NCBI RefSeq assembly: GCF_004339525.1
Contig: NZ_SMGE01000001.1
Span: 6,200,001 to 6,264,000 of the forward strand
DNA: 64,000 nt
DNA from: Flavobacterium sp. 90
GTDB taxonomy: Bacteria; Bacteroidota; Bacteroidia; Flavobacteriales; Flavobacteriaceae
Direction: 5' to 3'
This document shows positions 37,070-41,277 of the stretch, piece after piece; positions within the stretch are counted from its first letter, which is position 1, and each line of letters opens with the position of its first letter. Both the position numbers and the translations under genes were made by a program. Below the pieces are notes generated by a model. That model was not told where the DNA came from and searched no databases. It saw only the letters and a program-made list of their open reading frames with translations.

Positions 37070-37152
37070 AAAAAACAATATAATTTGCCCTCAGATATAT
37101 TACACTATTACATTTTTAATTTGCGGAAATTTGCGGCAAAAAGAAAATAAAA

Positions 37153-37189
37153 AAAAACGATGCAACTCAAATAGAATTGCATCGTTTTT
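37153..37189 (-). terminator. Terminator of the rtcB-prfH operon
   Basis: AAAAACGATGCAA pairs with TTGCATCGTTTTT (13 bp) around an 11-nt loop. It lies 17 bp beyond the stop of the TPR gene. Confidence 0.85.
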
Positions 37190-37205: not shown

Positions 37206-37742
37206 TTATTTAGATTTCTTTTTTGAATCTTTTTTTGATTTCTTTGACTTCTTTTTATTTTCAACTAAATCAATTTTTCCTTTAATTCTCTTCTCTACAT
37301 CAGTAATATCAGAATCAAAAGCAAATTGCAAAAAGTGAAGTTTAGCATTTTTTATTTCCTTCAATGCATTTTTAAACTCATGCTGCGCTTCATAAAGTAT
37401 TGCTTTCTTGACATAAATTTCAGATTTATTAATTCCTTTTACAGTCAAAGCAAAATCAATTAGTTTTTGAGCTTCTTCATAATCTTCGTTCAAAATCAAA
37501 GTTTGCAAATAATGAGGATAAACTTCAAGAGCATGAATATTAATTGCCAAAGCTTCCTGAAAATACTGCTTCGCCTCTTCATAATTCCATAATTGCTCTG
37601 CCTGAATTCTTCCGTACAAACACAAAACCATTGTGTTTTTGGCATCATATGAAAAAGCATAATCTAAAGATTCAATAGTTTCTTCAAGCGAATACGGATA
37701 ATTATCCAGAGCTTGAAAAAGGTATTTATCAATTGTTTTCAT
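37206..37742 (-). CDS. TPR protein, last gene of the rtcB-prfH operon
   Basis: 178 residues. Several tetratricopeptide-like helical repeats, for example [25 protein letters not shown] (about 52-76) and [16 protein letters not shown] (88-103), followed by a lysine-rich tail ([15 protein letters not shown]) that suggests contact with nucleic acid or ribosomes. Its start overlaps the prfH stop by 14 bp, so the two are translationally coupled. It could be an adaptor for the RtcB/PrfH proteins; no function is known. Confidence 0.8.
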
Positions 37743-38418
37743 TTCGTAAATCGGTTTTTAATTTCTGACGAGTTCCTTTGTAACTTTTCTCTACTTTATT
37801 CTTTTTGAAATCAGTTCCAGTAAAAACTCTAACAGGATTTCCACGCTGAATATTCAGTTGATTTTCCCATTGTTTTCCAACATGATTTTTAAGTTGTTGC
37901 AAAGTTTCGTCTTCTAGTTTTTTTAATAATCTTTCTGTTGCCAATTTTTTGTTTTGATGTTGTGATCGACTGTCCATCGACACAACGGCAATTCCTGTTG
38001 GAATATGAGTCGCTCGAATAGCCGAACTCACTTTATTAACGTGTTGTCCACCAGCACCGGAACTTCGCATCGCTTGGTATTGAATATCATTTTCTGAAAT
38101 CGACGCATTCTTTTGCGATTCAATCTCAAAAATGCCAATAAACCAATTTTTACGTTTGTGCATTTTCCTAAACTGACTCTGACCAATCCATTGAATCGTT
38201 CCTATCCATGAATTTGCAAATGTTTCAGCATTTTTTCCTTTTATAGATATTGTTGCCGTTTCAATAGTTCCGTTTTCTTCACCAACTTCTCTTTGAAGCA
38301 AAATAGTTTCTAACTGTTGTTCTTGTGCTTCGTCCAAAACTTTTTTAAGCACTTGGGCAACAACCCAAGTGCATTCTGCAGGTCCACGACCCGCTGTTAT
38401 CTGAATTATTTTTTCCAT
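37729..38418 (-). CDS. prfH: Release-factor homologue PrfH
   Basis: 229 residues, shorter than RF1 and RF2 because it lacks the stop-codon recognition domain. The peptidyl-tRNA hydrolysis motif is [17 protein letters not shown] (GGQ). PrfH is known, with its partner RtcB2, to rescue ribosomes whose 16S rRNA decoding site has been cut (colicin E3 type damage); RtcB2 then reseals the cut. Here it is 11 bp from rtcB and overlaps the TPR gene, exactly the arrangement expected for that system. Confidence 0.93.
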
Positions 38419-38429
38419 TTTTTATTTTC

Positions 38430-39821
38430 TTATCGGTCCATTCTAACGATTTTCGGAGTAAAAGTTCCCAGAACTTCCACCAAATCAGTTTGATTTCCCA
38501 TTACTTTTGTAATGTCTTTGTACGCCATTGGTGCTTCATCAATGTTTCCACCAATCAAGGTTACATCATTCGCTTTCAGCACTTTTTTAATTTCACTTTG
38601 AGTAAAATTAGCTTTGCATTTAGCTCTCGAAAATAAACGTCCCGCACCGTGAGAAGCTGAATTTAAACTCTCAACATTTCCCTTACCTTTTACAATATAA
38701 CCTGGCGCTGTCATCGATCCGGGAATAATCCCCAATTGGCCTTCTGCAGCTGGAGTTGCACCTTTTCTATGCACAATACATTCTTGTCCGTTTACCATTT
38801 CTTTCCAGGCAAAATTGTGATGATTTTCAATCGTAACCACTACTCTTTTTCCTACAGCTTTAGCAATTCTTCTATGAATATCGTCGTGACAGGCCTTTGC
38901 ATATTCTCCAGCTAAATTCATAGCGAGCCAATATTCCTGACCATCATGTGTGTTCAAATCCAACCAAGCCAAATGCTGAACATTTTTTGGTAGCGGACAT
39001 TGCTTAGTTGCCAAATACGTATAATGTTTCGCAATGTTTGCACCTAAACCGCGAGAACCGCTATGTGATAAAATGGCAAAATATTCTCCAACTCCAAGTT
39101 TCCATTCATTCTCTGGATTGTCAATTTTTGCAATTCCAAATTCCACAAAATGATTTCCTCCGCCAGAACTCCCTAATTGCTTATAAGCTTTTGGTAAAAG
39201 ATTCTTTAGTAAAGGAATATCCTGAAATTCGCTTTTGTAAAAAACTTCATGATCTGCTTTTGTAGCGTGTGTTTCATTCATTCCAAATTTGGTATTATCT
39301 TTCAAAATTGCCTCTAATTGATGTTCTTTTCCTTTGAAATAGGAAGCTGGTAAATCAAAAATTGACAAACTCATTCGGCAACCAATATCAACACCAACTC
39401 CATACGGAATAACTGCATTATCAGTTGCTAAAACTCCGCCAATTGGCAATCCATAACCTGAATGCGCGTCTGGCATTAATGCTCCCGCAACTGAAATTGG
39501 TAATTTTAAAGAATCATATAACTGAAACTTAGCTTGCTGATCAATTTCATTTTCACCAAAAATGGTAAAAGGAGCTCTGGTTGTCTTCAATTGATGCATT
39601 CTTACATGAACAGGATTTATCAAACCTTCGGCTACTTTTCCCCATGTTCCATGTCCATCAAATTTTTCGGGATGAAGTAATACTTCTTTTGCTTCTGTTA
39701 GAATGGATTCTTTTTTCTCTCTTTTTCTATATCTGTTTATTTGCCCTAAGGCTATGTTTATTGAATTATTTTTTGGAAAGCCTAACTTAATCAAGTCTTT
39801 TCCGGATAATTTATTTCCCAT
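38430..39821 (-). CDS. rtcB: RNA ligase RtcB (PrfH-linked type)
   Basis: 463 residues. It joins RNA 3'-phosphate or 2',3'-cyclic phosphate ends to 5'-OH ends using GTP and manganese. The metal and nucleotide motifs are in place: GVDIGCRM (D and C), GSSGGGNHFVEFG, LSHSGSRGLG, ENHHNFAW and SASHGAGR, whose histidine is the site of guanylylation in the family. It is larger than the 408-residue E. coli RtcB and has an N-terminal extension (about 1-60). No RtcA or archease is present. The gene sits between the unknown 248-residue gene and prfH. Confidence 0.95.
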   Translation of the reverse strand: MGNKLSGKDLIKLGFPKNNSINIALGQINRYRKREKKESILTEAKEVLLHPEKFDGHGTWGKVAEGLINPVHVRMHQLKTTRAPFTIFGENEIDQQAKFQLYDSLKLPISVAGALMPDAHSGYGLPIGGVLATDNAVIPYGVGVDIGCRMSLSIFDLPASYFKGKEHQLEAILKDNTKFGMNETHATKADHEVFYKSEFQDIPLLKNLLPKAYKQLGSSGGGNHFVEFGIAKIDNPENEWKLGVGEYFAILSHSGSRGLGANIAKHYTYLATKQCPLPKNVQHLAWLDLNTHDGQEYWLAMNLAGEYAKACHDDIHRRIAKAVGKRVVVTIENHHNFAWKEMVNGQECIVHRKGATPAAEGQLGIIPGSMTAPGYIVKGKGNVESLNSASHGAGRLFSRAKCKANFTQSEIKKVLKANDVTLIGGNIDEAPMAYKDITKVMGNQTDLVEVLGTFTPKIVRMDR

Positions 39822-39824
39822 GAT

Positions 39825-40571
39825 TTATATCGTTTCGTCTACATATAGTTGATACAACACGTGCAGACTTTTATTTTTAATTGGGTTAATCTCTCGTGGA
39901 TTTTCATTTTGATAATAGCGCCAACGATAAGAAAACCCATCTACTAATTTGTTTATTTTGTATCGTAAATTAAGATTCGTAACATAATTATCAAGAAGCT
40001 GAATTTCACTTTCTAAATCTGCATCAACCATTTTAGTATGCGTTATCATGTACGGTTTAACGCGAAATACATAACGCCAAGGTTCATTAAATACATAATG
40101 AATTTTGTAGCGTTTACAATTAGAACACCATCGTTCCCTTTTGTAAAAATGCATTTTCTCTTTATCAGTTAATGTTAGTTTTGGACTTCTCCATTCTGAT
40201 TCAGAAAATTCCTTTACTGTTTGAAGCTTCTCGACATACACATGCTTTCTTTTCCTCTTTTTCTTTTTCTTAAAAGATTTTTCAGAAGAATGTTCCCATG
40301 TATTTATCTTCTCAAGCAATGTTTTATAAAACAATGCTTCATTTGATCTTACTATATCTTCCCTGAGTACAAAACTGCGTTCCCAACCTTTTTGATAAGG
40401 CGTTGCTAAAGGAACCAATGGCAAATTTTGTCGTTTTTTCCAGAGTTCAACTTCAAGTTTTCTTGACTGAATTAATTGTTTTTCAAAATCTTCTTTTACT
40501 AATCTTTTCTTTGTTCTTTTATTTTTAAAGCGAGAGCACAAAGCATACTCTTCTGCTGTATAATTTTCCAT
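39825..40571 (-). CDS. Unknown 248-residue lysine-rich protein, first gene of the rtcB-prfH operon
   Basis: Not recognised. The start is set at the ATG 40571 (MENYTAEEYALCSRFKNK); an in-frame ATG 48 nt upstream (40619) follows a small hairpin and seems less likely. The body contains WERSFVLREDIVRSNEALFYK, a very basic patch (KKKKKRKRKHVYVEK), and one CxxC (WCSNCKRYKIHYVF) that could be half of a zinc site. The lysine richness and its place 3 bp upstream of rtcB, with coupled stop and start, suggest a role with RNA or ribosomes. Homologues, if any, were not recalled. Confidence 0.72.
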   Translation of the reverse strand: MENYTAEEYALCSRFKNKRTKKRLVKEDFEKQLIQSRKLEVELWKKRQNLPLVPLATPYQKGWERSFVLREDIVRSNEALFYKTLLEKINTWEHSSEKSFKKKKKRKRKHVYVEKLQTVKEFSESEWRSPKLTLTDKEKMHFYKRERWCSNCKRYKIHYVFNEPWRYVFRVKPYMITHTKMVDADLESEIQLLDNYVTNLNLRYKINKLVDGFSYRWRYYQNENPREINPIKNKSLHVLYQLYVDETI

Positions 40572-40680
40572 AAAAAAATTATAGTGCATTAAATTAATAG
40601 CCAAAACAGGCCATAACATTTTATCCGTTAGGATAAATTATAAAATCGATTATTCGGGAAAATTTGAAGTGTCTAGAATA

Positions 40681-40716
40681 AAAAAAGCCCGAAACTAAAT
40701 GTCTTCGGGCTTTTTT
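40681..40716 (-). terminator. Terminator of the 27-residue peptide gene
   Basis: AAAAAAGCCCGAA pairs with TTCGGGCTTTTTT (13 bp) around a 10-nt loop, 20 bp beyond the peptide stop on the minus strand. It also stops any transcript from the right before the rtcB operon. Confidence 0.85.
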
Positions 40717-40736: not shown

Positions 40737-40820
40737 CTAAGATTGAAATAAGCCACGAAGAAGCGCTGCACCAAATTCGTTTGGCGTGAAGCTTTGAGAT
40801 GTCAATGTAAGTACAAACAT
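40737..40820 (-). CDS. Possible 27-residue peptide
   Basis: ATG at 40820, TAG at 40737-40739. Product: MFVLTLTSQSFTPNEF followed by GAALLRGLFQS. It has an A-rich region before the ATG, a promoter-like pair (40860-40891) 40 nt upstream and a strong terminator 20 bp after the stop, so a transcript of about 170 nt is predicted. The sequence is amphipathic with one arginine. It may be a real small protein, a leader peptide or a small RNA that contains this frame by chance. Confidence 0.45.
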   Translation of the reverse strand: MFVLTLTSQSFTPNEFGAALLRGLFQS

Positions 40821-40859
40821 TTTTCTTCGTTTTTAAAGGGTTATTAATTTTTTCGTCTG

Positions 40860-40891
40860 CAAATATTCAGAATACTTTTTTGATTTTCCAA
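40860..40891 (-). promoter_or_regulatory. Promoter-like pair before the 27-residue peptide gene
   Basis: On the minus strand TTG (40891-40889), 21 nt, then AATATTTG (40867-40860), one mismatch from TAnnTTTG. The start site would be near 40853. Confidence 0.45.
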
Positions 40892-40975
40892 ATTTATTTT
40901 AAAGAAAATTCATCTAAAAAATAATTACTATATCTTTTAACTCTCGAAAAAACATATTATCTATTTGAAAACTAA

Positions 40976-41058
40976 AGCCCTAGCCCTGATAGAAGCGGTA
41001 TCCTTTTTAGGGCTTTTTTTGCCCGAAAAAGATATAGCGGATAGCAGGAAATAGCTCC
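40976..41058 (+). repeat. AGCCC...AGCTCC structured element, full copy
   Basis: Starts AGCCCTAGCCCTGATAGAAG and ends TAGCAGGAAATAGCTCC. In the middle CTTTTTAGGGC pairs with GCCCGAAAAAG around TTTTTTT. The outer blocks ATAGAAGCGGTATCC and GATATAGCGGATAGC are echoed by a second copy at 9345-9485. It resembles a repeat that I recall as common between flavobacterial genes; it could be an RNA motif of the Flavo-1 kind, but that is not verified. Confidence 0.6.
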
Positions 41059-41135: not shown

Positions 41136-41238
41136 TTGTCATTTCGACAGAGGAGAAATCACACGAGCAACTCCGTTCCTAAAAGTTACCAATATTTGAG
41201 ATATTACTAGTGTGATTTCTCCTCTGTCGAAATGACAA
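41136..41238. repeat. 103-bp element with perfect 29-nt inverted repeats
   Basis: The left arm (41136-41164; starts TTGTCATTTCGACAGAGG, ends AATCACAC) is the exact complement of 41210-41238. The 45-nt inner part contains GAGCAACTCCGTTCC and is not repeated. No coding capacity. Confidence 0.95.
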
Positions 41239-41277
41239 GATTTCGTATAAATGCAATTAAAAAATATAAGCACAAAA

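Follow-up and report, generated by a model that had tools for sequence, protein, structure and literature searches.

Organization of the rtcB-prfH Operon

This work concerns an rtcB-prfH operon of Flavobacterium sp. 90 and the leader region that precedes it. The host genome is a single contig of 6.65 Mb, from which a stretch of 64,000 nucleotides (nt), here called the window, was analyzed (NZ_SMGE01000001.1, positions 6,200,001-6,264,000); all coordinates are window positions. The open reading frame (ORF) listing of the window places four genes on the minus strand in the order OrfA, rtcB, prfH, and TPR. OrfA (40571-39825) is an RtcB-linked basic protein of 248 amino acids with an isoelectric point (pI) of 9.7. 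Its start at 40571 is the one common to its relatives, the longest ORF beginning at 40619. After 3 bp follows rtcB (39821-38430), encoding an RNA ligase of 463 amino acids, and 11 bp beyond it lies prfH (38418-37729), encoding the 229-residue peptide chain release factor H. The fourth gene (37742-37206) overlaps prfH by 14 bp and encodes a TPR-repeat protein of 178 amino acids with a lysine-rich C-terminal tail. A hairpin and T-run on the same strand (37150-37188), read from the sequence 3' of the TPR gene, is likely the end of the operon. The original prediction, made from the DNA letters, had described a tight operon with an 11-bp rtcB-prfH gap and closely packed flanking genes, and the ORF coordinates and gaps agree with it. 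Being adjacent in one apparent transcription unit, rtcB and prfH are presumably cotranscribed.

The identity of the two central genes was examined by profile searches. PrfH passes TIGR03072 (244.7 bits, cut-off 166.65), carries the GGQ peptidyl-hydrolase motif from residue 123, and has 9mor, "Peptide chain release factor H", as its closest solved chain (E 3e-77). RtcB passes PF01139 (277.4 bits, cut-off 27) and carries motifs with the Cys and His residues C148, H224, H253, H334/335, and H391, which we take to be catalytic. It scores under the cut-offs of the two models for release-factor-linked RtcB proteins, TIGR03073 (136.5 bits, cut-off 271.8) and NF007153 (172.8 bits, cut-off 407), and the locus is therefore termed an RtcB-PrfH operon rather than one of the Escherichia coli RtcB2 type. 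It would be a Bacteroidota operon for ribosome rescue and RNA repair, in which two further proteins linked to RtcB have an accessory part. The resealing of a cut 16S decoding site is a function carried over from E. coli.

A Leader ORF and Terminator Precede the Operon

Between a response-regulator gene and OrfA sits a 27-codon ORF (minus strand, 40820-40737) that reads MFVLTLTSQSFTPNEFGAALLRGLFQS up to its stop codon. Upstream of it is a promoter-like element of the Bacteroidota type (minus strand, 40860-40892), consisting of TTG (in TTTG, 40892-40889), a 21-nt spacer, and AATATTTG (40867-40860). The element was named by what we take to be the Bacteroidota promoter consensus, which is loose. 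Four segments of the minus strand make up the putative attenuator. Segment 1, ACGAAG (40825-40830), lies just 5' of the leader ATG. Segment 2, CTTCGTGGCTT (40750-40760), is made up of the codons for Leu-Arg-Gly, nearly repeats the 3' arm of the terminator, and is the candidate antiterminator strand. Segment 3, AAGCCCGAAG (40703-40712), is the 5' arm of the terminator, and segment 4, TTTCGGGCTT with its T-run (40680-40694), is the 3' arm that completes a predicted intrinsic terminator. The terminator hairpin spans 40712-40685, with the T-run extending to 40680, and lies 108 bp 5' of OrfA. Segment 2, as CTTCG-U-GGCTT, can pair with segment 3 over 10 bp with one bulged U, and segment 1 can pair with the CTTCGT of segment 2. 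Over the attenuator, an Rfam scan gave only matches under the gathering scores: Thr_leader twice, at 30.5 and 27.2 bits (gathering score 55), and MicC at 28.7 bits (gathering score 90).

The same arrangement was sought at 119 mapped loci, which include two without rtcB, prfH, or OrfA (L094 and L095) and whose sets overlap (for example, L097 and L166). At 82 of the 119 loci, the first scan detected a leader that carries Leu-Arg-Gly or Leu-Arg-Ala toward its end, comprising 80 distinct sequences of 25-28 codons. Six further leaders must start at GTG (L103, L179, L180, L181, L189, and L195) and one has Leu-Arg-Asp instead (L137), so that an in-frame leader with a terminator is present at 89 of the 119 loci. 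The geometry is tightly kept across the 82 loci of the first scan: the distance from the leader stop to the T-run is 44-52 nt, falling at 49-51 nt in 69 of them and at exactly 50 in 43. In 81 of these 82, the motif [TA]AnnTTTG is found at a distance of 34-43 nt upstream of the leader ATG, and a TTG stands 15-24 nt 5' of that motif in 75, with a spacer of 21 in 68.

Distribution of the Leader-Terminator Unit

Whole genomes were scanned with the pattern CTTCGYGSY...RCCCGAAG...TTCGGGYTTT, with the reversed pattern as a control. Among 150 Flavobacterium genomes, the pattern occurs once each in 43 and in none of the other 107; the control gave 0 matches. By coordinates, each of the 43 sites is on the 5' side of rtcB or OrfA, at a distance below 0.7 kb. 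These genomes are 40 of the 41 that have prfH, together with three (G052, G058, and G149) in which rtcB is present and prfH is absent or broken. In the 41st prfH-containing genome, G111, the unit is present and its terminator is a variant (L107). One of the three, G058, has at locus L083 an rtcB that is 72% identical and retains the attenuator, with neither prfH nor a TPR gene in the 4 kb analyzed.

In a sample of 296 genomes from across the phylum, the pattern was found in 18, all of which belong to the 22 with prfH; two further members of the 22 (G235 and G242) carry variants. The unit is also present in another family of the order (G161, G357, G410, G422, and G426), where it has different neighbors, and it is kept at loci without OrfA, without prfH, or with a broken prfH.

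Codon Choice and Pairing Potential of the Leader

Codon choice in segment 2 is strongly skewed. In the 80 distinct leaders, the Leu codon is CTT in every case, the Arg codon is CGT in 76 (CGC in 4), and the third codon is GGC in 65 (GGT in 13, Ala GCT in 2). The background shares of CTT, CGT, and GGC in 12 window genes are 0.23, 0.20, and 0.11. Pairing was scored on an alignment of 42 leaders, made up of 41 of the 80 distinct sequences plus that of the window, in which 96.7% of 420 cells of the segment 2:3 helix are paired. Half of these pairs are invariant and thus uninformative, and the rows are related, so that the counts do not represent independent events. Among the variable positions, pair 130-175 is C-G in 29 leaders, U-A in 7, and U-G in 6. 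In the Leu-Arg-Asp leader of G235, the GGC codon is replaced by GAC, and the 5' arm, GTCCGAAG, and 3' arm are altered too. These matching changes keep the pairing in spite of the altered amino acid. When 20 chosen leaders were each compared with 500 synonymous recodings, 16 paired better than 95% of their recodings.

Folding and a Proposed Mechanism of Attenuation

For seven leaders, folding was computed on the nascent transcript, still lacking segment 4, with the ribosome represented as a mask. The segment 2:3 helix forms over 8-10 bp with the P site at codon 3 and over 2-9 bp at codon 16, and does not form at codons 20, 24, or 27. By computation, the leader ORF overlaps an antiterminator helix whose formation is in competition with the terminator. 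That the leader is translated is suggested by the retention of an in-frame ORF with an ATG or GTG start.

These data allow us to propose a mechanism that follows the classical scheme of attenuation, with early stalling meaning on and full translation meaning off. When the leader is translated to its end, the ribosome would cover segment 2, the 3:4 terminator would form, and the operon would be off. A ribosome that initiates and then stalls or slows in the first half of the leader, being damaged or drugged, would leave segment 2 free. The free segment would pair with segment 3 before segment 4 exists, and transcription would go on. With the operon on, PrfH would release the stuck peptide and RtcB would reseal the cut RNA. 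The original prediction had suggested that OrfA or the TPR protein might take part in damage sensing; this role appears better placed in the leader-peptide attenuator 5' of the operon, which that prediction had missed.

OrfA Follows RtcB

Searches of Pfam and NCBIfam with OrfA gave no match up to E = 1. The AlphaFold2 model of the protein has fair local confidence, with a mean predicted local distance difference test score of 84.5 and a predicted template modeling score of 0.59, and structure comparison of this model gave no convincing match. The protein is basic, with a long N-terminal helix and no conserved Cys pairs. The CxxC motif pointed out in the original prediction is present (WCSNCKRY), but among 30 aligned relatives its two columns have Cys in no more than 9 and 3 sequences, and it therefore does not mark a conserved metal site.

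OrfA relatives in named genome contigs amount to 189 stretches, the best 80 of which reduce to 79 loci; neighbors were called by tblastn at E <= 1e-4. At 76 of the 79, the gene immediately 3' of OrfA encodes RtcB. PrfH is matched at 69 loci, the TPR protein at 57, a zinc-ribbon-type protein at 30, and a nucleotidyltransferase at 2. The three loci without RtcB are a contig end (L224), an OrfA-prfH pair (L226), and OrfA alone (L230). OrfA and rtcB occur without prfH at five Pedobacter loci (L211, L217, L218, L223, and L231) and in Flavobacterium araucananum (L166), where only TPR remnants are found. At another Pedobacter locus (L225), PrfH was missed by the window query and matched at E <= 1e-4 by wider queries. 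The existence of OrfA-rtcB loci without prfH indicates that OrfA follows RtcB and not PrfH.

The genome samples agree. Among the 150 Flavobacterium genomes, PrfH is found above the cut-off in 41, OrfA in 17, and RtcB in 62, and by coordinates all 17 OrfA matches adjoin RtcB. PrfH is above the cut-off in 15 of these 17, the exceptions being G052 and G149, the latter with a broken prfH; OrfA itself is broken in G109 and G149. In the phylum sample, PrfH is present in 22 genomes and OrfA in 9, all 9 having prfH within 5 kb of OrfA. rtcB lies between OrfA and prfH in all six that were mapped (G000, G235, G269, G321, G357, and G410; the other three of the 9 are G353, G390, and G430).

The G235 locus (L137, 4498-10704) contains genes for a TPR protein, PrfH, a nucleotidyltransferase, a Cys-rich protein, RtcB, and, 5' of rtcB, two strongly diverged relatives of OrfA, which are 19% and 18% identical. 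It is the fullest version of the system among the mapped loci.

The TPR Protein and Other Partner Genes

The TPR protein has the lysine-rich tail noted in the original prediction, and its TPR matches are sub-threshold, the best reaching 24.2 bits against a cut-off of 27. It was found at E <= 1e-20 in 46 of the 150 Flavobacterium genomes, and in 44 of them its gene adjoins rtcB or prfH, one of these prfH genes being broken (G149). Wherever prfH is of the main type (38 genomes), the TPR gene is the next gene 3' of it; the gene is missing from three genomes with a divergent prfH pair (G020, G076, and G123). In the phylum sample, a TPR match at E <= 1e-10 occurs in 23 genomes, 20 of them beside prfH, and 20 of the 22 genomes with prfH have it. 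The linkage of OrfA and the TPR gene to the operon is far above chance, and both genes travel with rtcB-prfH, a point that the original prediction had proposed to check: the homologues lie mostly at the operon (76/79 loci and 44/46 genomes) rather than elsewhere.

A second operon type lacks prfH and consists of a gene for a PcfJ-like protein, rtcB, and a TPR gene (L089-L093, corresponding to G033, G024, G118, G130, and G085). In these five genomes, the TPR gene just 3' of rtcB is approximately 36% identical. The PcfJ-like gene stands 5' of rtcB at four of the five loci, identified by PF14284 in the three scanned and by alignment in the fourth; G085 has a shorter ORF there. The intact rtcB copies are 65-67% identical, and that of G130 is split into three ORFs. 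TPR relatives were also seen alone, at L094 (5982-6476; G107) and as a fragment at L095 (5855-6151; G066), with no rtcB or prfH in the 12 kb analyzed; these are likely remnants of a lost operon.

Eight proteins encoded between rtcB and prfH in relatives of the operon were scanned. Six are nucleotidyltransferase-like, with matches to NTP_transf_5 or Aminoglyc_resit; two of these (G410 and G242) pass the Aminoglyc_resit cut-off, and the others fall below it. The remaining two, from G049 and G235, are Cys-rich.

The roles of the two accessory proteins can be suggested only from context. Judging by its linkage and charge, our guess is that OrfA probably helps RtcB to bind or find ribosomal RNA (rRNA); we give slightly under even odds to OrfA acting on rRNA together with RtcB. 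The TPR protein is probably a scaffold, a guess from its linkage and from a proposal published in 2019 (PMC6514570).

Alternative Explanations and Weight of the Evidence

The leader ORF and its terminator could instead be a separate small gene, with the operon transcribed from its own promoter and no attenuation taking place. Short ORFs with terminators can be independent small genes, and the approximately 110 bp between the terminator and OrfA leave room for a promoter. We consider this improbable, since the unit lies 5' of an rtcB operon in all 43 Flavobacterium genomes that hold it, recurs amid different neighbors in another family, persists where OrfA or prfH is lacking or prfH is broken, and keeps leader-terminator complementarity even when the peptide changes. 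The attenuator may also be real and answer to another signal, which could be an amino acid or one of the operon's own proteins (OrfA or RtcB) bound to the leader RNA. Many leaders are Ser/Thr-rich, OrfA is very basic (pI 9.7), and E. coli RtcAB act on their own regulator RtcR, according to the passages of PMC9650030 considered here. An amino-acid-sensing leader was rejected as the first choice because the leader types share no codon run (compare MFKFNQDSPAGLPLMVV with MFVLTLTSQSFTPN), and the operon is not biosynthetic. Binding by OrfA would have to be reconciled with leaders at OrfA-less loci, and an in-frame ORF is present at all 89 loci with the unit. This explanation, too, seems unlikely to us.

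As to the accessory genes, OrfA and the TPR gene could be unrelated housekeeping genes kept beside rtcB by vertical inheritance. The johnsoniae group is syntenic throughout the neighborhood, including miaA, a thioesterase gene, and two-component genes, so that linkage within this group is not independent evidence. Other lineages change their neighbors and still keep OrfA with rtcB and prfH with the TPR gene. Moreover, OrfA is never away from the operon in the two genome samples (17 of 17 beside rtcB; 9 of 9 within 5 kb of prfH), a diverged TPR gene stands 3' of rtcB even in the five genomes without prfH at that locus, and lone copies are rare, with one of 79 loci for OrfA (L230) and two of 46 genomes for TPR. 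Simple vertical retention is therefore very unlikely.

Several observations weigh against a ribosome-sensing attenuator with dedicated partners. For four of the 20 leaders, recodings pair as well as the native leader in 54 (L098), 76 (L099), 74 (L142), and 30 (L164) of 500 cases. Leader codons 2-20 are under only mild purifying selection, with a synonymous share of 0.35 versus 0.25 expected across 53 distinct 27-codon leaders; a mildly constrained peptide does fit a leader that matters by being translated and not by its product. Little covariation is seen in the terminator on alignment A3, where a one-column shift of some rows is part of the cause. With the ribosome at codon 3, the minimum-energy fold of the full transcript keeps the terminator in five of the seven leaders. 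Since the terminator is the lower-energy full-length fold in these, the switch needs kinetic capture of the 2:3 helix. Ribosome-free nascent RNA also makes 5-10 bp of 2:3, and the state of an untranslated leader is thus not predicted. The attenuator was not found in two prfH-containing genomes of the phylum sample (G166 and G269), at Pedobacter- or Chitinophaga-type OrfA-rtcB loci, or at PcfJ-rtcB-TPR loci, and a hairpin scan for analogous attenuators at the Pedobacter- and Chitinophaga-type loci returned only scattered pairings. OrfA is found in only 15 of the 41 Flavobacterium genomes with prfH and is broken in one of them (G109), which indicates that it is not essential. A parallel case, a leader peptide in Pseudomonas aeruginosa described below, is itself said by a review to need more confirmation as a case of attenuation. 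Finally, the evidence for the switch comes from sequences and computed folds.

On balance, we assign a probability of about 0.68 to the reading that the locus is an RtcB-PrfH repair operon with two RtcB-linked accessory proteins under a ribosome-sensing transcription attenuator. Taken separately, the attenuator very probably exists, and it probably responds to slowed ribosomes. The attenuator is well supported and appears dedicated to the operon, and self-sensing by the ribosome is the leading hypothesis for how repair would be induced.

Other Features near the Leader

The only Rfam family passing its gathering score in the scan is Flavo-1 RNA (RF01705; 76.3 bits, E 4e-16), at 40978-41055. It lies on the plus strand, the operon being on the minus strand, in the interval that separates the response regulator from the leader. 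An inverted repeat of approximately 100 bp at 41136-41239, with sub-threshold matches to plant microRNAs, looks like a small mobile or REP-like (repetitive extragenic palindromic) element.

Candidate Leaders outside Flavobacteriales

Short ORFs were also sought 5' of rtcB in seven records, out of nine drawn from the 45 matching records of a plasmid collection. In those of E. coli, Proteus mirabilis, and Aureibacter, a short ORF whose Shine-Dalgarno match extends over 7 nt is found 52-175 bp 5' of rtcB, a match attained by 0 of 400 shuffles in each case. The candidate leaders, all 5' of rtcB-prfH, are MTNPLSMTLCRPFQD in E. coli (L273, ~2176-2239), MTTTNMNTLCGQSQK in Proteus (L275, ~1735-1798), and MLVYHSNIAL in Aureibacter (L272, ~1830-1878). 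Weaker short ORFs were seen in Klebsiella (5-nt match, 6.5% of shuffles), Methylosinus (4-nt, 15%), and Shinella (4-nt, 20%), and the Skermanella record has no short Shine-Dalgarno ORF 5' of rtcB. We regard these ORFs as candidates, a lead and not a result. One rtcB-prfH pair, on a Klebsiella IncC plasmid (L276), is carried by a conjugative resistance plasmid, where a shorter annotated prfH ends beside sul1.

A broader proposal is that RtcB-PrfH operons of distant bacteria are generally switched by leader peptides, with the ribosome as the damage sensor and repair closing the loop; the Flavobacteriales attenuators would be a dedicated family, and OrfA possibly an rRNA-binding partner of new fold that brings RtcB to the cut ribosome. 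We consider this proposal in its entirety speculative and rather unlikely.

Comparison with Known Systems

In the passages of the literature covered here, what triggers induction of RtcB-PrfH repair is left open outside Pseudomonas. The conserved attenuator makes one answer testable, namely that damage to the decoding center would stall ribosomes on the 27-codon leader and switch on their own repair. The leader with its terminator also offers a clean marker for rtcB operons in Flavobacteriales, and the linkage data firmly associate both OrfA and the TPR protein with the RtcB pathway.

Burroughs and Aravind described, in the passages of their 2019 paper considered here (PMC6514570), neighbors of RFH-RtcB comprising a TPR gene, a Pol-beta nucleotidyltransferase, a zinc-ribbon protein with a charged C-terminus, and another charged protein, and likened the TPR protein to Rqc1. 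The Flavobacterium operon resembles these systems in its TPR gene beside RFH-RtcB and in a basic protein without known relatives, and its relatives resemble them in the Pol-beta-like nucleotidyltransferase and Cys-rich, zinc-ribbon (ZnR)-like genes between rtcB and prfH. These relatives thus likely carry versions of the TPR, nucleotidyltransferase, and zinc-ribbon genes of the 2019 list, and OrfA, compared by description only, may be its charged protein (item 4); the zinc-ribbon protein (item 3) was the other one considered. The original prediction had called both partner genes undescribed. Their linkage holds, but a TPR gene and highly charged proteins had already been listed with RFH-RtcB in those passages. 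Section 2.4 and the other passages of that paper considered here differ in mentioning no attenuator.

For the E. coli RtcB2-PrfH system, the portions of PMC9223846 consulted report that rtcB2-prfH shields cells from colicin E3, whose cut in 16S rRNA falls in the decoding center, and that rtcB2 alone on a high-copy plasmid restores resistance. The latter fits the retention of the attenuator by rtcB where prfH is lost. The two systems share the placement of rtcB directly 5' of prfH and a PrfH with GGQ and a codon-recognition region. The Flavobacterium operon differs in the length of its RtcB (463 amino acids) and the scores of that protein under the TIGR03073 and NF007153 cut-offs, in its OrfA and TPR partners, and in its leader and terminator.

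A Flavobacterium psychrophilum transcriptome paper mentions, in the part considered, leader attenuation for amino-acid operons (PMC9723704). In a search for leaders or attenuation with RtcB or Flavobacterium, whose coverage of the literature was partial, only PMC12057347 joins leader peptide, RtcB, and attenuation, and we do not claim that the attenuator is unpublished. According to the passages of PMC12057347 and PMC13041342 considered here, the P. aeruginosa leader PA5471.1 stands 5' of the RtcB-like gene armZ, which has PA5470/prfH as its neighbor. Full translation of PA5471.1 is described there as leading to a 3:4 terminator and early stalling as turning armZ on, and deletion of PA5471.1 or an early amber codon (at Q3) raised ArmZ. 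Common to both loci is a leader peptide with a 3:4 terminator 5' of an RtcB-like gene beside prfH. They differ in phylum and peptide, and ArmZ is an anti-repressor of an efflux operon; we treat the likeness as an analogy. The Flavobacterium attenuator is a new element at an operon whose partner genes are partly known, with a logic already described for Pseudomonas armZ.

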